In this document: positions 30,387 to 44,651 of the stretch, piece by piece
Numbering within the stretch: position 1 is the first letter of the stretch
Layout of the letters: each line of letters starts with the position of its first letter
Source: Actinomycetota bacterium
GTDB lineage: Bacteria; Actinomycetota; Acidimicrobiia; Acidimicrobiales; Ilumatobacteraceae
Direction of reading: 5' to 3'
DNA length: 64,000 bases
NCBI GenBank assembly: GCA_016871355.1
Contig: VFZC01000007.1
Span: 1 to 64,000, forward strand
Position numbers and translations under genes: made by a program
The notes under the pieces: generated by a model
What the model was told of the DNA's origin: nothing
Database searches by the model: none
Seen by the model: only the letters and a program-made list of their open reading frames with translations

Positions 30387-31529
30387 CCGAACGACTTGGG
30401 CGTGAAGAGGTGACAGCACTCCCTCGGCCAGCGCGTCCCAGGTGAGTCGTCGGGCCCGACGCTCGGCGTCACGCGACAACTGCGCTCGCCGCTCGGTGTC
30501 GGTGAGCACCTGAACCAATGAACGATGCAGATCGTCGATCGGTGCGAGCACACCGGTTTCGCCGTCGATCACCGAGCAGCGATGACCGCTGATGTCGGTG
30601 GCCACCGCGGGCGTGCCGCATCCGGCCGCTTCGGTGAGGGCCAGACCCCAACCCTCGGCGAGCGAGGCGCTGGCCACGATCCACGAACGGCGATAGTGAT
30701 CGCGTAACGCATCGCGACTGATTCGTCCGGCGAATTCGATCCAGCCTCGCGCGTCGTGAGCGTCGACCCACTGCTCGAGTCGCTCGCGCTCAGGGCCGTC
30801 ACCGACCAACGTCAAGCGAAGATCGGGCACGGTTCGACGTGCGATCGCCACTTGTTCGAACAGCCGATCGAACCGTTTGACCGGAGCCTGGCGCCCCACG
30901 GCGAGGATCGACGGATGACTCGTCTTGCCGATCGTCGGATCGGGCGAGAAGAAGTCGTCGACACCAACCGGTCCGGTGATCACTCGATCGGATTTCCAAC
31001 CGAGTTCGATGAGTTCGTCCCGCGTGTCATCCGACGTGGTGACGGTCGGAGTGCGTCGGTAGGCCGGCGGCGCCCAAATCGTCTCGAGTGCGCGACCAAG
31101 GGCTGCAATCGGACCCGGGAACACCTGGTTCCACATCGGGCCGTGGATGTGATGGAGGATGAGGATGCGCGGCTTACGACACCACAGCGGCGAGAACCAG
31201 GGCACTCCGTTCCAGATTTCGACGAGGGCGTCGTAGCGGCCCATACGCCCGACGACCTCGGACGCGATGGTGCGCGGAAACACCGACATGCGCCCACCTC
31301 GGCGAACCACGTCGTAGCCGTTGCGTCGCGCCACGGAGGGAAGTCCGTCGGCGTGGGACGTGCGGTGCAGTACCTCGAGGCCGGCGGCCGCCCACCGCTT
31401 CATGAATTCGTCGGCGTGCACTTCCGATCCGCCCGCTTCTCGATCGTCGAGATCGCGCCAGGCGAGCACGTGCACGCGTCGTACACCCCGCGCGATCACG
31501 TCGTCGACCATCGACTGGAGATCGCTCAC
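30384..31529 (-). CDS. GT4 family glycosyltransferase
   Basis: GT-B fold, retaining glycosyltransferase of 381 residues. The N-terminal VHVLAWRDLDDREAGGSEVH is the glycine-rich donor/acceptor entry typical of GT4. The C-terminal donor site has AVGRQAPVKRFDRLFEQ and ASLAEGWGLALTEAAGCG, with the E-x7-E pattern and DISGHR following. It probably works on the cytoplasmic side on a lipid-linked or nucleotide-sugar acceptor. I chose the GTG at 31529 because it overlaps the preceding stop (GTGA); longer in-frame readings extend into the upstream gene. It is the third gene of a minus-strand glycan operon. Confidence 0.88.
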   Translation of the reverse strand: MSDLQSMVDDVIARGVRRVHVLAWRDLDDREAGGSEVHADEFMKRWAAAGLEVLHRTSHADGLPSVARRNGYDVVRRGGRMSVFPRTIASEVVGRMGRYDALVEIWNGVPWFSPLWCRKPRILILHHIHGPMWNQVFPGPIAALGRALETIWAPPAYRRTPTVTTSDDTRDELIELGWKSDRVITGPVGVDDFFSPDPTIGKTSHPSILAVGRQAPVKRFDRLFEQVAIARRTVPDLRLTLVGDGPERERLEQWVDAHDARGWIEFAGRISRDALRDHYRRSWIVASASLAEGWGLALTEAAGCGTPAVATDISGHRCSVIDGETGVLAPIDDLHRSLVQVLTDTERRAQLSRDAERRARRLTWDALAEGVLSPLHAQVVR

Positions 31530-33325
31530 GGGTACAGCGGCGCTCCGACCGGGACGCGGAAGACCGCTCCGGGTAGTCGTATCTCGTTGTATCGGTTCAC
31601 GAGTACGTCGAGATCGGACGGCGACTCGACGTTGTACACCACCTGCGTGTGCCCGTATTGCGAGTCGAGCAGAGTGATCCACTCCGGATGACCCAGCTCA
31701 CGGATGCGTTCTTCGATGCGAAGACGCAAGTCGTTCGATTCGGCGCGCTCGTCGGCCGAACGCGGGTCGTACTCGGCCAACATCTCGGCATCGTCGCGCA
31801 GCGAAAAGCGCTCGATGTTCTCCGAGCCGACCACGAACCAGAGCACGGCATCGGCGTCGCGTTCGTCGGACATCGAGCGATACGGGCGAACGGTGGCCTT
31901 GGCCCACGGATCGACCTTCAACGTGTCGCCGCGCTTCTCCATCTCGAGGACGAAACCGAAGCCGGTTCCACCCAACGATGCCGGGTCGTGCCAGCGCAAC
32001 AAGTAGACCGAGTCGGGACCGAGAGACGGCGCGAGTTGCGCACCGAGATTCGCCACCAATCGCGAGTCACTGCGATAGGGCAAGTCGGCGCCGGCCGACG
32101 CCGCCGAGCCAGCCAGCGCCACACCGAGAACGGTCGCACCAAGAACTGCCCCGCCGATCGACGTCGATCGATGCCTGAGTTCCGAGTCGCCCGCGAGGGT
32201 GATGGTGACCGACCACAACGATGCGACTATCCAGAACACCGCCAACAGCCACGACCAACGAATCACGTAGTCGTAGAAGGTTCCGAACACGCGCGACGTG
32301 GCGTATAGGCCGATGAGCGTCGACCAGCCGAGCACGACGTACAAGCGACCGAGTTGGCGATCGCGATGCCGACGCCAAGCGGCCAGACCGGCGAGCACCA
32401 CCACGACGAACGCGACGAATCCCCACCACCGTGGGTCGTCGGTCGGATCGCGGCCCGGACCGGTCGCGAACGGACCGGCCAGATTGAACTCACCGGCCAA
32501 GGCTCGAAAGGCGGCCCGCAGACCAACGGTTTCGTCGGGTGGATTGGTGAAGTGCTCCCAAACTCGCCGCAAGTTTCCCGGACCCGGCTGCAACTGTTCG
32601 ATCACCGGCGGCAACCACATCGCGAACGTGACCCCGGCCGACCAGACCACCGGTCGACGCCAGGTTCCCGAGCGACGCGTGGTCCACACGAGCCACACCA
32701 CGAGTGGCACCAGTGCACCGGCCACGAGCGGCACGTAGCTGATGTGGGTCTGTAGGCAGTGGTACCCCACGGCCACGGCCAGGGGAAGCGCCCGGTGATG
32801 CCCGAGCAGAACGCCGGCGACCAGAACCAGAAAGAGCGTGTACGCGAACACGGGAATCCACGTGTTCCATGGTTCGAGGAAGAAACCGGGGGCGAGCGAC
32901 CGCACGATCACAGCCATGACGAGCGCCGTGATCGCGGTAACCCGCCACCCGAACCAGCGGCGCACGAAGAAGAGCGTGGCCAACACGCCAGCCATGTGCA
33001 CGACGAGGGTCGACACGATCACGCTGATACTCGAGCGGAACATCGCGAGATACACCGGATACAGCGCGTACGCCATGGACGGCCCCGGCTTGTAGCCCTG
33101 GTCGTTGATGTCACGACCCACGCGGGCCGCCACACCCACCAACGGCGGATGTTCGGGAATGCCGCGCATCATGAGCTCGGCCAACGACATGTCGCCCGTG
33201 GGGTGCCAGTCGACGAAGAGGTTGGACGCGACCGCCACGATGGCCGGCAACATCACGATCGCCGTCATCGCCACGAGCGTCACGAACGGATGACCGAGCG
33301 CCCAGTTCCTCAGGCGAGTGATCAT
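31526..33325 (-). CDS. Polytopic membrane protein, probable GT-C glycosyltransferase
   Basis: 599 residues with an N-terminal helix, then VDWHPTGDMSLAELMMRGIP. This is an external loop with the lone acidic pair expected near the active site of GT-C enzymes. About ten more hydrophobic segments follow, then a roughly 150-residue C-terminal globular part (from about VDPWAKATVRPYRSMSD). I do not recognise a named family. GT39-like membrane glycosyltransferase is the best guess, based on topology and neighbours. It overlaps the SGNH-like gene before it (ATGA) and the GT4 gene after it (GTGA), so all three are coupled. Confidence 0.7.
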   Translation of the reverse strand: MITRLRNWALGHPFVTLVAMTAIVMLPAIVAVASNLFVDWHPTGDMSLAELMMRGIPEHPPLVGVAARVGRDINDQGYKPGPSMAYALYPVYLAMFRSSISVIVSTLVVHMAGVLATLFFVRRWFGWRVTAITALVMAVIVRSLAPGFFLEPWNTWIPVFAYTLFLVLVAGVLLGHHRALPLAVAVGYHCLQTHISYVPLVAGALVPLVVWLVWTTRRSGTWRRPVVWSAGVTFAMWLPPVIEQLQPGPGNLRRVWEHFTNPPDETVGLRAAFRALAGEFNLAGPFATGPGRDPTDDPRWWGFVAFVVVVLAGLAAWRRHRDRQLGRLYVVLGWSTLIGLYATSRVFGTFYDYVIRWSWLLAVFWIVASLWSVTITLAGDSELRHRSTSIGGAVLGATVLGVALAGSAASAGADLPYRSDSRLVANLGAQLAPSLGPDSVYLLRWHDPASLGGTGFGFVLEMEKRGDTLKVDPWAKATVRPYRSMSDERDADAVLWFVVGSENIERFSLRDDAEMLAEYDPRSADERAESNDLRLRIEERIRELGHPEWITLLDSQYGHTQVVYNVESPSDLDVLVNRYNEIRLPGAVFRVPVGAPLYP

Positions 33326-34018: not shown

Positions 34019-37000
34019 ATGCTGGGACCTCGACAGGACGATCCCGCCCTCCCCCGTGCGGGATGGCTGATCCTCGGGCTCGGCGTCGCCCATCTCGTCG
34101 AACGCTCACTCGCCGCGGGCGATGTCGTGTCGTGGTCGGGCTGGATCCAACCCCTTCTTCTCGTGGCCGTGGTGGCGACGGCGCCCGTCGACGGCTGGAC
34201 TCGCCGACGCGTCCTCATGGGCGGTGCGTTGTGGTGGTCGATCGTGGCCATTGCGGTCGCGACCCATGCGGCCACCACACCGACTCCGCGAGACCTGTTG
34301 GCGAGCCTCGTGATCTTCCGTACTCCCGACGGTGCGCTTCCGGGTCTGGAGATCGGACCTCTCGTACTGACGGCGGTCCTGACTCTCGTCGTCCTCCGGC
34401 GGTGGCGCTCCTCGAATCACGTCGTCGTTCCCGTCGGACTGATCGCGATCGGACTGGCGGTTCAACTGATCGGCGGCCAGATGGCCACGTGGCCGCTCGG
34501 ACATCTCCATCTGGTCGGACTCGGATTGCTGGCCCGTCGTTGGAGCGCCGGTCTCATTCGCACCGACGTTCGACGGCCGCGTCTCACCTCGTTGCTCTGG
34601 ATCACGCCCGGTGTCGTTCTTCTCGGCGACTCGGCCTTCGATCTCATCGCTCGCCAGCACGTCGAACGCGTCGTACTCCACAGCGGACGGGCGATCGGAC
34701 TCGATGGTCCGGTCCTCCCGACTTTTCTCTGGACCGTCATCACGGCGTCCGCACTCGGACTCGTGATCACCGCTGCCCTCGCCGTCGCCGTCGGCCACGG
34801 TTCGTTCGCTCGCCGAACGTCGTACGCCCTCACCGCGACGTCGGTGATCGCCCTCGGCTTCCTGGTGCGACTGGCCACACTGCTCACGGTCGCACCCACG
34901 CGCACCGACGGCGGCGATCCGCTCTTCTACCACTCCACTGCCAACATCCTCGCCGAAGGTGGCGGCTTCCCCGAACCGCTCAACTTCATCGCATTCCAAC
35001 GGTGGATTCCGTCGGCTCTGCACGGACCGCTCTATCCCATCGTCCTGTCGATCAGTTCACGACTGGGTGGCACCACCTACTTCGACCACAAGTTCGTGTC
35101 GCTGTTGATCGGCACCGGTGTCGTCGCACTGGTGGTTCTGGTGACTCGTCGCATCACCGACTCACCGCTCGCGGCCATCGTCGCCGGATTCCTCGCCGCG
35201 ATCTACCCCAACTTGTGGTTGGTCGACGCTGTGTTGTTCCCCGAAGGCCTCATGGCTCTGTGCACGATGACGGTCGTCTACGCCGCGTATCGCTGGTGGG
35301 ATCGACCGGCCTGGCGCTGGACCATCGTCATGGGAGCCGTCACCGGGTTGGCCACCCTCGCGAGAGGCGAAGGTTTGTTGCTGTCGGTTCTCCTCATCGT
35401 CCCGTGGATCGCACTGCGCCGCGACCTGTCGTGGCGCCGACGAATCGAACACGTCGCGCTGGCGGCCGTAGCGTGCATCGTCGTCCTGGCTCCCTGGGCC
35501 GTTCGTAACGCCCGTTCGTTCGAGGCCTTCGTGCCTCTGTCGACCAACGGCAACGAGTTGTTCGTGTACGCCAATTGCGACGAGACCTACGAAGGAAAGT
35601 TCCTGGGCTTCTGGCTGTTCGATTGCCAAGAGCAGATTCGACGCGAGGGCCGCGACGCCGTCGGCGACGAAGCCGAGAAGTCTTTGTACTGGCGCGAAAT
35701 CGGTCTCGACTACGCGCGTGACAACGCCGGTCAGCTGCCCAAGGTGTTGGCGGCTCGTGTGCTGCGCCAATGGGATCTCTTCCGGCCGTGGCAGAACGCC
35801 GACTTCGCCCCCATCGAGGGCCGCGACAAGGATGCCGCTCGAGCCGGTCTCGTCATGTACTACGGACTGGCCGCGACCTCGCTCGTGGGCGTGCGCTGGT
35901 TGCGTCGTCGACAGGTGCGATTGCTCCCGCTCGTCGTGCAGTTCGTGAGTGTCACGCTCACCGCGGCGTATGCGTACGGCACCACGAGATTCCGCATCCC
36001 GGCCGAGCCGATTCTGTGTGTCTTGGCTGGCGCCGGAGCCGTTCCGATCATTCGCTGGCTGGCCCGTCGCTACGCGCGCACGCCGCGTGACGAACCCGTC
36101 GACACGACTCCGTTCGTTCGGGGCGGATCCGTGTCGTGGCGGACCGCCTTCCAACGCGCATCGGTGCGTTCGTGGATCGCGGTCGGTTCGGTCGCAGCGG
36201 CGGTGGGCCTGGCCCTTCCCGCGCTCTACCGCGCGACTGGGTCGACCATGGAAGAGGGCTTCATGCTCGTCTTCCCCGAACGCGTGATGAACGGCGACGT
36301 CGCCAACGTCGACTTCTTGCATCTGTACGGACCCGGCTCACTGCACTGGCTGTCGTTGTGGTACCGACTCTTCGACGTCTCACTCGCCAGCGAACGAACC
36401 TTCGGGCTGCTCCAACATCTTCTCGTCGTCTCGGCTCTCTTCGTACTGGCCCGTCCGTGGGGGCGCGCGGTGGCCGCCGTCGCCGCCGCGTCGTCGGTGG
36501 TCTACGTCCTCACCCCCATCGGCTTGCAGGCCTTGGCCTGGTCGGGTGCGGTCGGGCTCGGTTTGTGGTCGGTGGTCTTCGCGGTGCGCGCGTCGTACAT
36601 CGAACGACCAGCGCGTTCGGTGCTGATCAGCGGCCTGCTGGCCGGAGTCGCTCTCACCTTCCGTCCCGATGTGGTGCTCGCGCTGGCACTGGCTCTGGGT
36701 TTCACTCCGGTGGTGCGACGACAGTGGCGTGCTCTCGCCGGTGGTCTCGCCATCGGGTTGGCGTCGTTCTGGATTCATCTCGTGCAGGCCGGTCCGGCCG
36801 ATGTCTTCCGCGGCATGGTGCTCGAGCCGGTCTTCGATCTGCGTGGCGGGCGCGAACTACCGCGACCCCCGAGCTGGGACCATCTCGACGGTGCCCTGCA
36901 GGTGATCGGCGAGAAGTTCGCACCCTGGTGGGGTGTTCCGCACATCGGTGCACCCAAGCAGTTGTTCCTCTGGTTCTTCGCCCTTCCGATCATCGCCTTC

Positions 37001-37954
37001 GGTGTCGTGGTGGTCGCGCGTCGACTCGAGCCGATGCGCCGTACCGCGCTTCTCGCTCCAGCGCTGTTCGGTGTCGGCATCCTGCCCCAAGCGCTCCAAC
37101 GCCCGGATTCGGCTCACTTCAACTGGGTGGCCATGGTGTCGTGGCCACTCGCCGTCATCGCCGTGGTCGAGATCGTTCGTCGTCGCGCGCCCACGATTCA
37201 TCCGACCGTGCGCACCTGGATCGCCGGTGGATCACTTCTCGTCACGTTGGCGATCGTCGCGCCGTTCTTCACCTTGCGCACCTACGGCGATCTGGTCGTA
37301 CGCAGCGTGAGTGGTGATCTGTCGACCCTCACGGTCGAACGCAACGGCCGCACCTTCCATCTCGGCGACACCCGACCGTGGAAGGCCAGTCTCGAGGTGA
37401 TCGCCGATCTCGATGCGCAGGCGCGTCCCAGTGAGCGGCTGTTCGTCGGTCCGGTCGATCTGCGTCAGACCGCCTACAGCGACGTGTTCTTCTACTACCT
37501 GTTCCCCGAACTCGATCCGGCCACGTACTTCATCGAGATGGATCCCGGTCTGGCCAACGCCGAGGGCTCGCGTTTGAGCGCCGATGTGGCCAGCGCCGAC
37601 TGGCTCGTTCTCACTCGCTTCTGGAGCGGTTGGATCGAACCCAACGACTCCATCGTGTTCGGGTCGGACGAGCCCAATCAAGTGGTCGAGTCATCGTTCT
37701 GTTTGCGCGGCTCGTATCAAGCCGACGTGATCCGCTTGTACCAGCGGTGCGACAAGGGTGACGGCATCGGTCCGTACGACCCACCCTACGAACCGCGGGT
37801 CGATTACGCAGTCGAAGTGTTGGTACCGGTACCACCACGTCCCGACGGCACCTGCACACCCACGTGCAACGGACGTCCGGCCCTACCCGGCGAGGGCTTC
37901 AACCCAGAGGAAGCCGCCGCCATAACGGCGCGGGCAGGTGCCTCAGCACCATGA
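34019..37954 (+). CDS. 1311-residue tandem GT-C membrane glycosyltransferase fusion
   Basis: Three parts are visible. Residues 1 to about 260 are hydrophobic helices of unassigned type. About 270-690 is a GT-C-like module with the external loop RTDGGDPLFYHSTANILAEG (295-314), ending YGTTRFRIPAEPILCVLAG. From about 704 a second GT-C-like module starts with ATGSTMEEGFMLVFPERVM and LHLYGPGSLHWLSLWYRLF. A globular C-terminal part rich in Pro and Cys closes the protein. The acidic residues in both first loops suggest two active sites. It probably adds two sugars from polyprenyl-phosphate donors to a wall polymer. I do not recognise it as a named family. Its final 56 bases overlap dprE2 on the other strand. 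Confidence 0.75.
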   Translation: MLGPRQDDPALPRAGWLILGLGVAHLVERSLAAGDVVSWSGWIQPLLLVAVVATAPVDGWTRRRVLMGGALWWSIVAIAVATHAATTPTPRDLLASLVIFRTPDGALPGLEIGPLVLTAVLTLVVLRRWRSSNHVVVPVGLIAIGLAVQLIGGQMATWPLGHLHLVGLGLLARRWSAGLIRTDVRRPRLTSLLWITPGVVLLGDSAFDLIARQHVERVVLHSGRAIGLDGPVLPTFLWTVITASALGLVITAALAVAVGHGSFARRTSYALTATSVIALGFLVRLATLLTVAPTRTDGGDPLFYHSTANILAEGGGFPEPLNFIAFQRWIPSALHGPLYPIVLSISSRLGGTTYFDHKFVSLLIGTGVVALVVLVTRRITDSPLAAIVAGFLAAIYPNLWLVDAVLFPEGLMALCTMTVVYAAYRWWDRPAWRWTIVMGAVTGLATLARGEGLLLSVLLIVPWIALRRDLSWRRRIEHVALAAVACIVVLAPWAVRNARSFEAFVPLSTNGNELFVYANCDETYEGKFLGFWLFDCQEQIRREGRDAVGDEAEKSLYWREIGLDYARDNAGQLPKVLAARVLRQWDLFRPWQNADFAPIEGRDKDAARAGLVMYYGLAATSLVGVRWLRRRQVRLLPLVVQFVSVTLTAAYAYGTTRFRIPAEPILCVLAGAGAVPIIRWLARRYARTPRDEPVDTTPFVRGGSVSWRTAFQRASVRSWIAVGSVAAAVGLALPALYRATGSTMEEGFMLVFPERVMNGDVANVDFLHLYGPGSLHWLSLWYRLFDVSLASERTFGLLQHLLVVSALFVLARPWGRAVAAVAAASSVVYVLTPIGLQALAWSGAVGLGLWSVVFAVRASYIERPARSVLISGLLAGVALTFRPDVVLALALALGFTPVVRRQWRALAGGLAIGLASFWIHLVQAGPADVFRGMVLEPVFDLRGGRELPRPPSWDHLDGALQVIGEKFAPWWGVPHIGAPKQLFLWFFALPIIAFGVVVVARRLEPMRRTALLAPALFGVGILPQALQRPDSAHFNWVAMVSWPLAVIAVVEIVRRRAPTIHPTVRTWIAGGSLLVTLAIVAPFFTLRTYGDLVVRSVSGDLSTLTVERNGRTFHLGDTRPWKASLEVIADLDAQARPSERLFVGPVDLRQTAYSDVFFYYLFPELDPATYFIEMDPGLANAEGSRLSADVASADWLVLTRFWSGWIEPNDSIVFGSDEPNQVVESSFCLRGSYQADVIRLYQRCDKGDGIGPYDPPYEPRVDYAVEVLVPVPPRPDGTCTPTCNGRPALPGEGFNPEEAAAITARAGASAP

Positions 37955-38660
37955 ACACGTAGCGCAACACTCCGGGAACCCACACGATTCGTCGGCCGGC
38001 CCTGAGTGCCTTCGCTGTCGCGTCGGCGACGGCATCGGGAGTGGTGGCGAACGGTGCGGCTTCCATTCCCTGGGTCATCGCGCTGTGCACGAAGCCGGGC
38101 CGCACGACGAGAACCGAGACTCCCGACGAGACGAGTGAATCGCCAAGGGCCTGGGCGAATCCGTCCAAACCCGCCTTGGTCGATCCGTACACCATGTTGG
38201 CCGGACGGACTCGTTCGCCCGCCACACTCGACAGAACCACGATGCGCCCGTGACCTTGGCGGCGCATCACGCGGGCCACCGCCAGCAGTACCGATACCGC
38301 ACCGGCGAAGTTGACGGCCACGAGGTCGGCTGCGGCCACCGGGTCGTCGTCGAAGTGCGACTGCTCACCCAGTTGACCGAAGGCGAGAACGACGACGTCG
38401 ATGTCACCCAGCGACGTTGCCAGCGAATCGACGAAGGCCGCGTGTTGATCGACGCGAACGGCGTCGAAGGGAACCGCGTCGACGATGAGGCCGGGTCGAC
38501 GAAGCCCGTCGATCGGAGCGTCTTGTGGGCGACGGCACGCCAGCACGATCGACGTGGTGGATGGTGCGGTCAGCCGACGCGCGATGGCGACTCCGATGTC
38601 GCTCGATCCACCGAGCACGACGATGTTCTGCGGTTCTCCGGCGGCGTTCAACATGTTCAC
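37899..38660 (-). CDS. dprE2: Decaprenylphosphoryl-2-keto-erythro-pentose reductase (DprE2)
   Basis: SDR-family NADH-dependent reductase of 253 residues, the second step in epimerising decaprenyl-phosphoryl-ribose to -arabinose. The cofactor motif is VVLGGSSDIGVAIARRL, and the catalytic Ser and Tyr-x3-Lys lie in LSSVAGERVRPANMVYGSTK. The C-terminal RHLPAPLWRRLPLG is the membrane-facing tail seen in DprE2. The GTG at 38660 overlaps the dprE1 stop by 4 nt (GTGA). An ATG six bases further on is an alternative. It is last in the long minus-strand operon and converges on the GT-C fusion gene. Confidence 0.92.
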   Translation of the reverse strand: MNMLNAAGEPQNIVVLGGSSDIGVAIARRLTAPSTTSIVLACRRPQDAPIDGLRRPGLIVDAVPFDAVRVDQHAAFVDSLATSLGDIDVVVLAFGQLGEQSHFDDDPVAAADLVAVNFAGAVSVLLAVARVMRRQGHGRIVVLSSVAGERVRPANMVYGSTKAGLDGFAQALGDSLVSSGVSVLVVRPGFVHSAMTQGMEAAPFATTPDAVADATAKALRAGRRIVWVPGVLRYVFMVLRHLPAPLWRRLPLG

Positions 38661-40024
38661 TCCAGGAGTCCGAGGCGGCGAGCCAAGTCGCTGCGGAAAG
38701 TCTGTTGCGGATCGAGCCGACGGCGAACGTTCTGCCACTCGGCCAGGCGCGGATAGCCCGCGCGAAGAGCCGCCGGGCCGAGCAACGCATCCTTGGCGAG
38801 GTAGTGACGGCCGCCGGCTTCGAGGACGATCTCGTCGAGCGTGCGCGTGAGTGAGGCGAGAGTGTCGGCACCGGCCGGCAGATCGACCGTGAGGGTCCAA
38901 CCCGGCATCGGGAAGCTGAGTGGCGCATCGTTACCGGCACCGAATCGCTTGAGAACGACCAGCGGAGTGGCCAGACGTGAAGCGACGATCACCTCGACGA
39001 TGCGACGCAGTTCGGATTCGCGGCCGAATGGAACGACGAACTGGTACTGAACGAAACCGTGCCGACCGTGCAAACGATTCCAAGACCCAACCGCATCGAG
39101 CGGATGGAAGTAAGCCGGAATCGACTTGATGGAGCCTTCACGGCGACGCGGTTCCTTGCGGAACCAGGCCTCGTTGAAGACGGCACTCGACAGTGCGTTC
39201 ACCACACCCGACCCGGGAATCACTGGTGGAACCGACAGCACTTGACGCGGTCCGTACTCGAGCGCATTGGCCCGATCGGCCACCGGCAGATCGTCGCGAC
39301 GGGCGTGATCACCACGCCAGAGAACGCCACGCCCGAAGTGCGATCCACTCGACAAGAGATCGACCCACGCCACCGAGTACCGGACGTCGTCGTCTCCGGT
39401 GCTCATGTGTTCGATCAATTCGTCGAAGTCGTCACAGCGCACCGTGTCGACCCGGCAGCGGCTCGTTTCGATGCCGATCAGTCCGAAGGTCGCGTCGCGG
39501 ATGACTCCGGTGAGTCCCATGCCGCCGATGGTCGTCCAGAACGCGTCGGGATTCTGCTTGCGCGAGCACTCGAGCACCGAGCCATCGGCGAGAACGAGCG
39601 AGAAGCGCCGTACGTGATTGCCGAAGCTCCCCTCGAGGTGATGATTCTTGCCGTGGATGTCGGCCGCCACCGCCCCACCCACCGTGACGAATCGAGTGCC
39701 CGGCGTGACCGGGACGAAGAACCCGCGCGGAACGATCACGCGCAGCAGATCGTCGAGGCTGACGCCGGCTCCGGCGGTGACGGTTCCAGCCGACTCGTCG
39801 AGACGTACGTCGGACGACGACGACGCCAGTCGCAGGACTCGCCCGCCACCGTTTTGAGCTGCGTCACCGTAAGACCGCCCGAGACCACGAACGAGAACTC
39901 CTCGCTCGTCGGCCACCTTCACATGGTCGATGAGATCGCGATCGGACACCGTGGCGACGTGAGCCGACGACATGGTGGAGCGCCCCCAACCACGAAGCAC
40001 CTCGGACGCGTAGTCGGGAGACAT
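38657..40024 (-). CDS. dprE1: Decaprenylphosphoryl-beta-D-ribose 2'-oxidase (DprE1)
   Basis: 455-residue FAD enzyme (461 in M. tuberculosis) that oxidises decaprenyl-phosphoryl-ribose at C2. The FAD-binding domain has RGLGRSYGDAAQNGGG and VTPGTRFVTVGGAVAADIHG, followed by KNHHLEGSFGNHVRRFS. The substrate-side lysine is K411 in YLAKDALL. The loop RFGAGNDAPLSFPMPGWTLT carries Thr379 where the mycobacterial enzyme has Cys387, the residue modified by benzothiazinones. The final PRLAEWQNVRRRLDPQQTF is typical of the family. It forms an epimerase pair with dprE2 and lies 25 bp after ubiA. Confidence 0.95.
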   Translation of the reverse strand: MSPDYASEVLRGWGRSTMSSAHVATVSDRDLIDHVKVADERGVLVRGLGRSYGDAAQNGGGRVLRLASSSSDVRLDESAGTVTAGAGVSLDDLLRVIVPRGFFVPVTPGTRFVTVGGAVAADIHGKNHHLEGSFGNHVRRFSLVLADGSVLECSRKQNPDAFWTTIGGMGLTGVIRDATFGLIGIETSRCRVDTVRCDDFDELIEHMSTGDDDVRYSVAWVDLLSSGSHFGRGVLWRGDHARRDDLPVADRANALEYGPRQVLSVPPVIPGSGVVNALSSAVFNEAWFRKEPRRREGSIKSIPAYFHPLDAVGSWNRLHGRHGFVQYQFVVPFGRESELRRIVEVIVASRLATPLVVLKRFGAGNDAPLSFPMPGWTLTVDLPAGADTLASLTRTLDEIVLEAGGRHYLAKDALLGPAALRAGYPRLAEWQNVRRRLDPQQTFRSDLARRLGLLE

Positions 40025-40049: not shown

Positions 40050-40919
40050 TCAGCCGACGTAGACACCCAGAGCGAACACCGCGACCCACACGACGCCCAT
40101 CAACTGCAGCATGCGATCGGCCACGAAGATCTCCTCAGGTGCGCTGCCGTGCCCTTGTTCGAGCACGAGCAGATACCGCATGAGAGCGGCGAGCATGGGG
40201 ACGATCGAGAGTTCGTAGAACGGCCAGGTGGCGCCGGACACTTCTTTGGTGTCGAACGCCCAGGTGCAGTACGCGACGAGTGTCGCGCCCACCGAAACCG
40301 ACAGGATGATGCGCAGATAGCCGAGCGAGTATTGCGAGAGCGTCGGACGAGTGGACGCCGCATCTTCTCCCATCTCGCGCAACTCGGCGTAGCGCTTTCC
40401 GGTGACGATGAACAACGACCCGCAACTCGTGCAGAGAAGGAACCACGTACTCATCGGGACGCCGGTGGCTTCGGCGCCGGCGATCGCGCGGATGACGAAA
40501 CCGGCGGCCACCGCGATCAGGTCGACGACGGCCTGATGCTTGAGCCAGACCGAGTAACCCACCGTGACCGCGACGTACACGCAGACCGCGACACCACAAC
40601 GCCAGTCGGGAACGAACCCGAGACCAAGACCTCCGAGGAGAAGAAGCGTTCCGATGACACGAGCGGTTCCGAGGCCGATGCGACCGGCGGCGATGGGACG
40701 ATTGCGCTTGGTGGGATGGCGACGATCGGCCTCGACATCGAGGAGATCGTTCCAGTAGTACGTTCCGCTGGCCGCCAGCGACAGCGCCACGAAAGCCACC
40801 AGAGCCGGCCACAGGCCGGCCCAGTTGTCGAGCACACCGGCCGCACCCGGAGCCGCGAACACCAGCAAGTTCTTCAACCACTGCTTGGGGCGGGCTTCCG
40901 CGAACAGCGCACCGATCAC
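40050..40919 (-). CDS. ubiA: Decaprenyl-phosphate phosphoribosyltransferase (UbiA family)
   Basis: 289-residue UbiA-superfamily membrane transferase. LFAEARPKQWLKNLLVFAAP opens the first helix. NDLLDVEADRRHPTKRNRPI is the first Asp-rich (NDxxDxxxD) motif, and YSVWLKHQAVVDLIAVAAGF is the second region. These match the actinobacterial DPPR synthases (Rv3806c type), which join PRPP to decaprenyl phosphate. The start is a GTG overlapping the HAD stop by 4 nt. With dprE1 and dprE2 it completes a decaprenyl-phosphoryl-arabinose route, apart from the dephosphorylation step. Confidence 0.93.
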   Translation of the reverse strand: MIGALFAEARPKQWLKNLLVFAAPGAAGVLDNWAGLWPALVAFVALSLAASGTYYWNDLLDVEADRRHPTKRNRPIAAGRIGLGTARVIGTLLLLGGLGLGFVPDWRCGVAVCVYVAVTVGYSVWLKHQAVVDLIAVAAGFVIRAIAGAEATGVPMSTWFLLCTSCGSLFIVTGKRYAELREMGEDAASTRPTLSQYSLGYLRIILSVSVGATLVAYCTWAFDTKEVSGATWPFYELSIVPMLAALMRYLLVLEQGHGSAPEEIFVADRMLQLMGVVWVAVFALGVYVG

Positions 40920-41524
40920 GCCGGCACCTCGGAAATCGGACTCGTCGTGACACGGATCGCGTGATCGGCGAACGCGAGCATCTCGGCATCAGCCGACGAG
41001 TCACCATAGGCGTACACGGTCGGTCGGTCGCCTCCAAGCCACTCGCGCAGGCGACGTTCTTTCTCCATTCCTCGACAATTGGCGCCACGGAGTCGACCGG
41101 TGCACAGGCCCCGCTCGTCGACCTCCACATCGGTGGACAACACGGCATGAGCGCCCACGTGCGCAGCCAGCGGTTCGAGGTACGAGCGGAACGACGCCGA
41201 CACCAGAACGATGTGATGACCCTTCGCCGCGTGCCAACGCAATCGCGCCATGGTGTCGGGACGAAGATGACGCCGAACGAAGCCCGCTTCGAATTCGGCG
41301 CCCAGACGATCGACGGTGTCGATCGGCAGACCGCGAACGGCTGCGGCCGTCACCACTTCTTTGACCCGATCACGACGCCGGGCCGCCGCCGCGGCGACGA
41401 GACTCGGACTCCGCGGGGCCAGTCCGGCCAACAAACCTGGGCCGCGCAGACGCCACAAGAACGGCACGACGCAATCGCGCGTGGTCAAGGTCTTGTCGAC
41501 GTCGAAGGCGGCCACCGTCTCCAT
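40916..41524 (-). CDS. HAD-IB family phosphatase
   Basis: 202-residue HAD phosphohydrolase. Motif I is AFDVDKTLTTRD (nucleophile D8, general acid D10). Motif II is the Ser in IVLVSASFRSYLEPLAAHVG, and motif IV is YAYGDSSADAEML. The cap between motifs I and II is the helical type of the SerB-like IB subclass. No membrane helix is evident. It is translationally coupled to ubiA (GTGA), which suggests it dephosphorylates the UbiA product, 5-phosphoribosyl-1-phosphodecaprenol. That is inference from position; a generic phosphoserine- or lipid-phosphatase role remains possible. Confidence 0.88.
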   Translation of the reverse strand: METVAAFDVDKTLTTRDCVVPFLWRLRGPGLLAGLAPRSPSLVAAAAARRRDRVKEVVTAAAVRGLPIDTVDRLGAEFEAGFVRRHLRPDTMARLRWHAAKGHHIVLVSASFRSYLEPLAAHVGAHAVLSTDVEVDERGLCTGRLRGANCRGMEKERRLREWLGGDRPTVYAYGDSSADAEMLAFADHAIRVTTSPISEVPA

Positions 41525-41537
41525 GGGCACGGGGAGA

Positions 41538-42818
41538 TTACCGACCCGCCACGAGCGACGCCCGGACGGTCCACCAATCGGGCCAACTCTTCGAGACGAC
41601 CGAATCGTCGTCGAGAGTGATGCCCGGAATCCGCAATGCCAACAACGACCAGGCCATCGCCAAACGATGATCGTGATGAGTGGCCAACACGGCGCCGTGG
41701 TACGACTCGGGAACCGATGGACTGATGACGATGCCGTCGTTCGTGACTTCGGTTTGACACCCGATCGATCGCAACCCGCGGGCCAGGTCACCGAGCCGAT
41801 CGCTCTCCTTGTTGCGAATGAAACCGACACCACGAATGTGTGTCGGTGTGTCGGCGAACGCGGCCACGGCCGCGAGAGTGGGAACCAGATCGGAGACATC
41901 GGCCATGTCGACGTCGATTCCTCGCAACGACGCGCCGCCGCGCACCCGGGTGCCCGCGTCATCGATCGTCGCGACACAGCCCATGCTCTCGAGCAGAGAT
42001 GCGAAGGCCGCATCACCCTGGAGAGAACGTGCGGTCAGGCCCGGAACCATCACGTCTCCCGTGGTGATCGCGGCCGCGGCCAACGGATACGACGCCGAGG
42101 ATGCATCGGGTTCGATCCGGTAGTCGATGGCGCGATATCCGTCGGGGGCCACGTCGATCGTCTGATCGGAGATGGCGATACCGGACGCTCCGAACGTGGA
42201 CATCACCGCGGCGGTCATCGCCACGTACGGACGTGACACCAACGGCGACGTGAGCCGGATCGACAGACCCTCGGTCAGCAACGGCGCAATGAGCATCAAC
42301 GCGGTGACGAATTGACTGCTCACGTCACCGGGCAGTTCGACCACTCCGCCGCGGAGATTGCCGCGAGACACCCGCACCGGAAGGCAGCCCATCTCACCGA
42401 GTGCTTCGATACGAGCACCGAGACGACTCAGCGATTCGTGGAGCGCCGCCATGGGTCGAGCGCGCAGACGTTCGGCTCCGGTGACGACCGACGAGTCGGT
42501 GCCGAGCGCGGCCACCGCCGTGAGAAAGCGCGACGTGGTGCCGGCCAACATGGCATCGACTTCCACTCCCCCACGAATACGCCCGCCGTGACCCGACACC
42601 GTGAAATCGCCATCGGATTGATGGACGATCGTCGCACCCAAACGCGTGAGACCGTCGATCATCGCGCGCGTGTCGTCTCCATCCGGACAACCGCGAACCT
42701 GACTGACCCCATCGGCCAGTGCTGCACACACGAGTGCGCGGTTGGCGATGCTCTTCGAACCCGGAACGCTCACCGTGGCCCGGATCGGTGCCGACGCGAC
42801 GTCGAGAGGACGGGTCAT
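41538..42818 (-). CDS. aroA: 3-phosphoshikimate 1-carboxyvinyltransferase (EPSP synthase)
   Basis: 426-residue enzyme of the shikimate pathway. VPGSKSIANRALVCAALADG opens domain 1, with the lysine that binds both substrates. LAGTTSRFLTAVAAL is the PEP-site region, and FIRNKESDRLGDLARGL is the signature before the C-terminus. All major blocks are in place, so it should be active. ATGA overlap joins it to tyrA upstream. The HAD gene follows 13 bp later, linking aromatic amino acid synthesis with the arabinose-donor genes on one likely transcript. Confidence 0.95.
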   Translation of the reverse strand: MTRPLDVASAPIRATVSVPGSKSIANRALVCAALADGVSQVRGCPDGDDTRAMIDGLTRLGATIVHQSDGDFTVSGHGGRIRGGVEVDAMLAGTTSRFLTAVAALGTDSSVVTGAERLRARPMAALHESLSRLGARIEALGEMGCLPVRVSRGNLRGGVVELPGDVSSQFVTALMLIAPLLTEGLSIRLTSPLVSRPYVAMTAAVMSTFGASGIAISDQTIDVAPDGYRAIDYRIEPDASSASYPLAAAAITTGDVMVPGLTARSLQGDAAFASLLESMGCVATIDDAGTRVRGGASLRGIDVDMADVSDLVPTLAAVAAFADTPTHIRGVGFIRNKESDRLGDLARGLRSIGCQTEVTNDGIVISPSVPESYHGAVLATHHDHRLAMAWSLLALRIPGITLDDDSVVSKSWPDWWTVRASLVAGR

Positions 42819-43876
42819 GACAACCGGGTGATCGAGGGACGAAAGCCGCGCGCCATCAAGCCACCCCGGAACAACTCGGCGGCATCGGCTTCCACGAGAA
42901 CGACCGCGATACCGCGATCACCTTCCACCGAATGCACGACTTCGAAGTTCGGAATGTTGACCCCGAGTTCGGCGGCCAGAGTGAACACTTCGGCAGCCGC
43001 ACCGGGTCGGTCGGGAATCGGGATCCGCACCTCGGCCAGATCGTCGGGCCGAGTGACCCGCGACGGAAGATTGGCCCGTGCTTCACGAGCGCTGGTGAGT
43101 CGAGCGAGCAGGGCCGAACGATCGCCACTCGCGATCACGCCACGCATGTCGCCGAGGCCGGCGATGAGTGCATCGAGTGCGGCCACGATGGCATCGCGAT
43201 TCTCGTCGCAGATGTCGAGCCAGATACCGGGCTGACCCGAAGCGATACGCGTCATGTCGCGGAAACCACCAGCAGCCAGGCGCAGCAATGCGACGTGCTC
43301 TTCGGCGCGCGAACCGGCCAGACGCATGAGAGTCGCCGCGGTGAGATGAGGAACGTGGCTCACGACTGCGACCAAGCTGTCGTGGCGCTCGGGTTGGAGG
43401 CCCACCACCTCGGCCCCCAACTCGCTCACCGCGGCCGCCACGGTGGCGAACGCGTCGTCGGACGTGCTGGCCGTCGGCGTGAGTACCCACACCGCACCCA
43501 CGAACATCTCGGCATCGGCACCGTCGAGACCGTCGAGTTCGCTACCGGCCATCGGATGGCCGGCCACGAAGCGCGAGTCGGTGATCGCACGAGCCAGCGC
43601 CGTCTTCACACTGCCCACGTCGGACACGACCCCGGTCGTTTCACGAAGTGCTCGCTCGACTTCGGTGTGCAACGCCTTGGGTGGCACGGCCACGAACGTG
43701 ACCGCGGCATCGCGGGCCAGGCCGGCCTCGTGAATGATTCCGCGCTCGCGGGCCACGGCGACACGCTTGTCGTCGACATCGGTGCCGTGGACGCGCCAGC
43801 CGCGCTCGGACAGTGCCAGGGCGACCGAGCCTCCGATCAGGCCGAGGCCAAGGACGTTGGCGACCCGATCACTCAT
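42815..43876 (-). CDS. tyrA: Prephenate dehydrogenase with C-terminal ACT domain
   Basis: About 353 residues. The NAD-binding motif NVLGLGLIGGSVALAL has its GxGxxG at 10-15. SDVGSVKTAL and AGHPMAGSELDGLDGAD are typical prephenate dehydrogenase blocks, and FRDMTRIASGQPGIWLDI lies in the helical domain. The last 75 residues (EVRIPIPDRPGAAAEV onwards) form an ACT domain, probably for tyrosine feedback. The ATG at 43876 overlaps the end of rluB by 8 nt. In many actinobacteria cmk follows rluB; here tyrA and aroA take that place. Confidence 0.93.
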   Translation of the reverse strand: MSDRVANVLGLGLIGGSVALALSERGWRVHGTDVDDKRVAVARERGIIHEAGLARDAAVTFVAVPPKALHTEVERALRETTGVVSDVGSVKTALARAITDSRFVAGHPMAGSELDGLDGADAEMFVGAVWVLTPTASTSDDAFATVAAAVSELGAEVVGLQPERHDSLVAVVSHVPHLTAATLMRLAGSRAEEHVALLRLAAGGFRDMTRIASGQPGIWLDICDENRDAIVAALDALIAGLGDMRGVIASGDRSALLARLTSAREARANLPSRVTRPDDLAEVRIPIPDRPGAAAEVFTLAAELGVNIPNFEVVHSVEGDRGIAVVLVEADAAELFRGGLMARGFRPSITRLS

Positions 43877-44651
43877 CGTCACGAGGGTACCGAGCCACGG
43901 CACTGGTGAGGCTTCTCAATTCGTCGAGCGTGAGCTCGCGGCAGGCACCCGGACGTAACGATCGATCGGAAATCGGACCGATGCGCACACGCACCAACCG
44001 TTGCACCGGATGACCCACCGCATCGCACATCCGGCGAATCTGACGATTGCGACCTTCGTGAATGGTGATTCGCAACAGACCAGGCTCGGGTTGCGACACC
44101 TGCGCCGGTGCGGTCCGACCGTCTTCCAGATCGACGCCTTCGCGAAGTTGCCGCAACTCCCCGGGCGCCACCTGACCACCCGCCACATGGGCGAGATACT
44201 CCTTGTCGACACCGTGCGACGGATGCGCGATGCGATGCGCGAGATCACCGTCGTTGGTGAGGAGCAAGAGTCCTTCGGTTTCGGCATCGAGTCGCCCGAC
44301 CGGGAAGACGCGCGGCTCGGTCGGCACCAGATCGAGCACGATGGGTCGACCCTGCGGATCGTGCGCCGTGGTGACGACACCCGATGGCTTGTTCACGAGG
44401 TAGTACACCAGGCCGGGTTTCACTCCGATCGGAACGCCGTCCACCTCGACCAGATCGTGATCGACGTCGACCCGACGGCCTAGTTCGGCGACTTCGCCAT
44501 TGACGGTGACGCGACGCTCGGCGATGAGTTCTTCACACGTGCGGCGCGAGCCGAACCCGCGCACGGCCAGAACCTTCTGCAACCGCTCGCCTTGTGGGAG
44601 AAGGCGCGACTTCTCGGCCCATTGCTCCCAGAGCGGTTTCTCCACCGTCAC
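43869..44651 (-). CDS. rluB: 23S rRNA pseudouridine synthase (RluB/RsuA family)
   Basis: 260-residue protein with an S4 RNA-binding domain at the N-terminus (GERLQKVLAVRGFGSRRTCE). The RsuA-type catalytic domain follows, with VFPVGRLDAETEGLLLLTND, in which the Asp of GRLD is the nucleophile. GRNRQIRRMCDAVGHPVQ is the end block. The GTG at 44651 overlaps the scpB stop (GTGA), and longer readings reach into scpB without conservation. Position after scpA-scpB is the standard actinobacterial and Firmicute order, which supports RluB rather than RluE or RsuA. Confidence 0.92.
   Translation of the reverse strand: MTVEKPLWEQWAEKSRLLPQGERLQKVLAVRGFGSRRTCEELIAERRVTVNGEVAELGRRVDVDHDLVEVDGVPIGVKPGLVYYLVNKPSGVVTTAHDPQGRPIVLDLVPTEPRVFPVGRLDAETEGLLLLTNDGDLAHRIAHPSHGVDKEYLAHVAGGQVAPGELRQLREGVDLEDGRTAPAQVSQPEPGLLRITIHEGRNRQIRRMCDAVGHPVQRLVRVRIGPISDRSLRPGACRELTLDELRSLTSAVARYPRDDE

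Follow-up and report, generated by a model that had tools for sequence, protein, structure and literature searches.

A HAD-IB phosphatase gene overlapping ubiA in Acidimicrobiia: a proposed polyprenyl-phosphate-ribose 5-phosphatase

Which enzyme removes the 5-phosphate from the product of UbiA in a bacterium whose ubiA gene overlaps a HAD gene? The phosphatase step is the least certain of the DPA pathway, a validated tuberculosis drug target. Rv3807c, the mycobacterial candidate, has only putative status, and among the DPA genes tested in M. tuberculosis it alone was reported as not proven to be essential (PMC5964476). The locus considered here lies in a 64,000-nucleotide stretch of DNA (the window) from a 2.2-Mb metagenome-assembled genome (MAG), 86% complete, the near relatives of which are labelled Ilumatobacteraceae/Acidimicrobiales. 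In the proposed scheme, UbiA would make 5-phosphoribosyl-polyprenyl phosphate from PRPP, and a cytoplasmic, magnesium-dependent HAD-IB enzyme would take off the 5-phosphate via an Asp8 phospho-enzyme. The product, polyprenyl-phosphoryl-ribose, would be the DprE1/DprE2 substrate leading to the arabinofuranose donor, and translational coupling would hold HAD and UbiA in step. It is very probable that the window HAD protein is the phosphatase that acts on the product of the adjacent UbiA in this way. The basis seen here is gene integrity, family, operon, group-specific co-occurrence, a fusion in a relative and shared residues. The reaction itself was demonstrated by others for a fused homologue; the substrate, mechanism and lipid of the window enzyme are inferred.

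The operon and its phosphatase gene

The HAD gene is the third of a minus-strand operon ordered tyrA-aroA-HAD-ubiA-dprE1-dprE2 (Table 1). Its ORF begins with ATG and ends with TGA after 202 codons, and because the gene order is kept in relatives, it is no chance ORF. The protein matches the Pfam HAD family PF12710 with 132.8 bits (cut-off 27) and the HAD-IB family TIGR01490 with 139.7 bits, above the curated cut-off of 98.3. Motifs I-IV are intact: DVDKT supplies the nucleophile D8, the acid/base D10 and T12, S109 forms motif II, K155 motif III, and GDSSAD contributes D175 and D179 of motif IV. Together with an alpha-helical C1 cap, these place the protein within TIGR01490. The AlphaFold2 model (seven sequences in the alignment) has a mean pLDDT of 92.7 and a pTM of 0.89, and its best Foldseek matches in the PDB are 3fvv, which is uncharacterised, followed by SerB phosphatases, as for a HAD-IB fold. 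This predicted fold fits the proposed role; it does not by itself identify the substrate. The initial annotation had described an intact HAD-IB gene coupled to ubiA through GTGA, and both parts of this description are borne out, the former by start and stop codons, family scores and motifs, the latter by the overlap itself and by a Shine-Dalgarno-like hexamer upstream of the ubiA start.

Table 1. Features of the locus, in window coordinates
Feature	Coordinates	Strand	Basis
HAD-IB phosphatase, proposed polyprenyl-phosphate-ribose 5-phosphatase, 202 aa	40916..41524	-	Pfam/NCBIfam profiles, motifs, AlphaFold2, Foldseek
D17 codon, group-specific residue, cap/substrate region	41474..41476	-	alignment
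K55 codon, group-specific residue	41360..41362	-	alignment
N149 codon, group-specific residue just before motif III lysine	41078..41080	-	alignment
GTGA, HAD stop (TGA) and ubiA start (GTG) overlapping	40916..40919	-	direct reading
GAGGTG, Shine-Dalgarno-like hexamer of ubiA within HAD gene, 5 nt before GTG	40925..40930	-	direct reading
ubiA, decaprenyl-phosphate 5-phosphoribosyltransferase	40050..40919	-	NF008978 330.1 bits, cut-off 207
dprE1, decaprenylphosphoryl-ribose oxidase	38657..40024	-	NF053785 545.6 bits, cut-off 500
dprE2, 2-ulose reductase, start provisional	37899..38708	-	NF053786 301.6 bits, cut-off 250
aroA, EPSP synthase, upstream operon neighbour of HAD	41538..42818	-	TIGR01356 386 bits, cut-off 287.25
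tyrA-type prephenate dehydrogenase, upstream operon neighbour	42815..43903	-	profile matches

The UbiA protein belongs to NF008978 and has the NDxxDxxxD motif of that family as NDLLDVEAD (N57/D58/D61/D65), the columns of which are invariant in A2. Downstream of dprE2 lie genes for two large putative GT-C proteins (34019-37954 and 31526-33325), possibly arabinosyltransferases; the former gives weak PMT-type Pfam matches, and neither has an NCBIfam match.

A HAD group that accompanies ubiA

A contig scan with the UbiA profile alone gave only seven loci. The survey of ubiA neighbourhoods for HAD versus PAP2 genes that had been suggested as a check found the HAD gene linked to ubiA or dprE genes in Acidimicrobiia, whereas ubiA-linked PAP2 genes were confined to loci of the Mycobacteriales type. 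At least five gene orders place the HAD gene next to ubiA, dprE1 or dprE2, and aroA is missing from several of them. These include HAD-ubiA-dprE1-dprE2 at a locus from which aroA is absent (L045 of G049), ubiA-dprE1-dprE2-HAD in G042, G043 and the class-level relative G076 (L042, L073, L207), ubiA-HAD in G040 (L051), and, in G054 (L111), a HAD gene separated from dprE2 by about 0.9 kb and located on the other strand. HAD and ubiA are unlinked, yet both present, in G041, G057, G059, G265, G285 and G296. Separate HAD genes also adjoin UbiA genes in Parabacteroides, Prevotella, Lactococcus and several Actinomycetota.

Two further arrangements were observed. G180 (L204, L205, L206) encodes two UbiA and two HAD-group proteins, with one pair of genes adjacent and the other split between aro and dpr loci. 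In two small-genome Actinomycetota (L202 and L203 of G141 and G319), a divergent UbiA without NDxxDxxxD, the substrate of which may differ, stands next to a HAD that keeps D17 and K55.

Relatives encode several TIGR01490 proteins per genome, from which the HADs linked to ubiA are set apart by trees, scores and residues. When 84 HAD domains were placed in a tree, 35 ubiA-adjacent and five unlinked members were separated from 44 other paralogues by a branch supported at SH-aLRT 100. In the trees, all ubiA-linked and fused HADs fall on one side of a branch from the other TIGR01490 paralogues. Against 296 Actinomycetota genomes, a profile of the ubiA-linked group (A1) gave 16 matches of at least 184 bits, with all remaining matches at 121 bits or less. 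Since A1 contains the sequences that it matches best, including that of the window (280.8 bits), the evidence is this gap and not the scores themselves. The window HAD lies above the gap and carries the three residues typical of the group. Position 17 is Asp in 39 of the 40 group members, in all six neighbours from other lineages, in all seven fused PRP domains and in a Persicobacter fusion, compared with none of the 44 other TIGR01490 paralogues. Lys at position 55 has the same distribution (39/40, 6/6, 7/7 and 1/1) but recurs in five of the 44, and Asn at position 149 is found in 40/40, 5/6 (Asp in the sixth), 7/7, 1/1 and 0/44, respectively. The 15 HADs that score best among those not in the group lack both D17 and N149. 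D17 aligns close to the cap glutamate of phosphoserine phosphatases, a residue that reads the substrate there. Judged from the alignment, D17, K55 and N149 could bind the ribosyl lipid, or they could alternatively be ancestral. The cap helix region of the ubiA-linked group is slightly more hydrophobic (1.08 versus 0.74) and more basic (charge +5.5 versus +3.2), differences too small to argue for membrane docking.

The group also follows ubiA from genome to genome. Among 61 relatives, some of them incomplete MAGs, matches to the UbiA and A1 profiles give 36 genomes with both genes, seven with ubiA only, none with HAD only and 18 with neither (Fisher 4e-10). Most of the 36 come from one genus, and such tests only partly account for shared descent. 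In the other genera of the window's family, HAD occurs in eight of eight genomes with UbiA and in none of five without (p 0.0008); with one genome per family outside that family, the proportions are 8/14 and 0/10 (p 0.006). Across the 296 genomes of the phylum sample, the group is present in 15, all of which have UbiA, and 64 further genomes, mostly outside Acidimicrobiia, have UbiA without HAD. The HAD is not universal even within Acidimicrobiia, given that seven of the 43 relatives with ubiA lack it (in one case at a contig edge, in another with a distant UbiA), as do five of the 20 Acidimicrobiia in the phylum sample. All-against-all BLAST of the neighbourhoods with ubiA and no HAD found no phosphatase beside ubiA, but only ubiA, dprE1, dprE2, their shadow frames and unrelated genes. 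Acidimicrobiia loci with ubiA and dprE1 that are free of both HAD and PAP2 include L044, L046, L050 and L187-L191, among others (genomes G046, G038, G051, G139, G160, G191, G275, G337, G055 and G056); dprE2 is nearby in most, often in the order dprE2-ubiA-dprE1.

Other explanations for the gene and for the step

The conserved linkage to ubiA could be accidental if the HAD served the aromatic amino-acid operon, acting for example on a shikimate-pathway or other metabolite phosphate. The aroA gene lies 13 nt upstream of it, and the whole family retains tyrA-aroA-HAD. This includes G029 and one of the two copies in G180, where HAD stays beside aroA and ubiA is elsewhere. This reading is nevertheless highly improbable, because the gene stands with ubiA, dprE1 and dprE2 without aroA (L042, L045, L073, L207) or beside dprE2 (L111) in other families and in a lineage sister to them within the class, it is absent from all ubiA-free relatives, and a single Persicobacter ORF joins it to UbiA. 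There is similarly little to be said for a generic HAD-IB enzyme, whether a phosphoserine, histidinol or CicA/PlsC-type phosphatase. Although SerB structures are among the nearest folds, the window HAD matches the SerB model TIGR00338 with only 19.2 bits (cut-off 144) and the histidinol-phosphatase model NF052360 with 50.3 bits (cut-off 280), both far under the curated cut-offs; moreover, its group is distinct from the TIGR01490 paralogues of the same genomes and co-occurs with ubiA only.

Somewhat less remote, but still unlikely, is removal of the 5-phosphate by a PAP2 enzyme encoded elsewhere, as proposed for Rv3807c, with the HAD doing something else. The earlier remark that no PAP2 gene is seen stands for the 64-kb window, in which there are no PAP2 matches, but it is true only locally, as the genome has three such matches outside it. 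One of these is a small protein of 184 aa with all PAP2 motifs. A PAP2 gene stands directly before ubiA in Rhodococcus and further loci of the Mycobacteriales type, and ubiA-linked PAP2 was recovered in Nocardia too. Recovery of these loci means that the method detects PAP2 where it is present, yet none of the PAP2 matches listed for the 61 relatives adjoins ubiA, and their best scores against the profile of ubiA-linked PAP2 are 77 bits or less. The initial annotation had held that a PAP2 homologue encoded elsewhere would speak against the HAD if its linkage to dprE genes were conserved. This was looked for, and the small PAP2 gene was instead found among fatty-acid and acyl-CoA genes (acyl-CoA ligase, SDR, acyl-CoA dehydrogenase and hydrolase), unlinked to dprE. 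Its kind occurs in 57 of the 61 relatives independently of ubiA, including nearly all that lack it, whereas G057, a 97% complete genome with both ubiA and HAD, has no PAP2. PAP2-family phosphatases are also needed for undecaprenyl-diphosphate recycling. As for the HAD itself, a profile search of its ORF returned HAD only, and the fold and motifs of Rv3807c-type PAP2 are absent. The proposal of the HAD as a good candidate for a non-orthologous replacement of PAP2 thus gains support from linkage, co-occurrence, fusion, shared residues and the unlinked position of PAP2.

Fused homologues and known systems

In Persicobacter sp. JZB09 (L256), a single ORF of 497 aa consists of an A1-type HAD in its first 203 residues (144 bits) and a UbiA in the remainder (191 bits). 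Further fusions are described by the NCBIfam model PRK08238. An N-terminal HAD followed by UbiA is encoded on plasmids of Vibrio, Salipiger, Sinorhizobium NGR234, Roseomonas and a Sphingomonadaceae, and the same layout was found in Burkholderia by six-frame reading; in Salipiger, the fusion is followed by GtrA, DprE1 and DprE2 genes. The PRP domains of these proteins are distant in sequence from the window HAD and A1 (branch 2.3). The window HAD and UbiA are separate ORFs that score 18.5 and 174.8 bits, respectively, against PRK08238/NF006088, the model of the ORF15-type fusion (cut-off 351). In Agrobacterium pusense (L227:4686-5849), a PRK08238-type UbiA is annotated as a CDS of 387 aa without a HAD, possibly a truncated fusion, although GtrA, DprE1 and DprE2 genes follow it.

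The precedent for the reaction is ORF15 of Citrobacter youngae O1, a fused HAD-UbiA protein reported in 2024 to make farnesyl-P-ribose from PRPP and farnesyl-P (PMC11127046). In its HAD nucleophile mutant D18A the 5-phosphate form accumulates and some dephosphorylated product is left (PMC11127046), so other phosphatases can act. Given this precedent, a HAD carrying out the 5-phosphatase step is not new; the new part, as read from the genes, would be that a free-standing HAD-IB enzyme serves the DprE1/DprE2 pathway of an actinobacterium. Literature searches of open-licence papers found none assigning an Acidimicrobiia HAD to this step. More broadly, it is likely that Acidimicrobiia have a dedicated free-standing HAD-IB enzyme instead of PAP2, and that unrelated or distantly related enzymes (PAP2, DUF212, HAD-IB/PRP and possibly PHP) have on at least four occasions come to occupy the 5-phosphatase position next to UbiA. 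If true, such repeated replacement would help explain why the mycobacterial enzyme has been elusive. The assignment would supply the step missing from the Acidimicrobiia pathway, a HAD that is soluble and partners UbiA would be a tractable enzyme for in vitro polyprenyl-P-ribose production, and the D17/K55/N149 signature combined with a gene-neighbour rule could be used to assign the 5-phosphatase step across phyla.

On a plasmid of the haloarchaeon Halostagnicola larsenii, a PHP-domain gene (L230:5905-6585) directly follows a DPPRS-type UbiA gene and may encode a replacement phosphatase. In Marivivens, a gene for a DUF212 protein (divergent PAP2; L252:3837-4256) overlaps the UbiA gene, a possible phosphatase partner. 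An endonuclease/exonuclease/phosphatase-family gene lies two genes downstream of a UbiA gene (L249:5028-6404) on a plasmid of Streptomyces sp. SAT1.

Among known systems, the closest experimentally characterised relative of the window HAD is Citrobacter ORF15, in which a HAD phosphatase with the same catalytic Asp works with a DPPRS-type UbiA on polyprenyl-P-ribose-5-P, as proposed here. D17, K55 and N149 are common to both types, as read in relatives of ORF15 (Vibrio, Salipiger, NGR234 and others). Unlike ORF15, the window has two overlapping genes and not one polypeptide, its HAD belongs to a different branch (TIGR01490 type, with a longer cap), and it accompanies DprE1/DprE2 in an actinobacterium, whereas ORF15 serves O-antigen ribose. 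The Persicobacter fusion and the Parabacteroides and Prevotella pairs (L040, L232) share a HAD that matches A1 (144-230 bits) and is either fused to UbiA or encoded beside it, but are uncharacterised Bacteroidota proteins, with no DprE homologue detected near any of the three. The Halostagnicola PHP-domain and Marivivens DUF212 proteins have the same gene position next to UbiA, yet they are putative replacements from families unrelated to HAD. According to the ORF15 authors, the counterparts in mycobacteria and P. aeruginosa rely on separate phosphatases, which belong to other structural families (PMC11127046). The PAP2 of Rv3807c and other Mycobacteriales resembles the window HAD in its overlapping gene immediately before ubiA and in the reaction proposed for it, and differs in being a putative membrane enzyme of unrelated fold.
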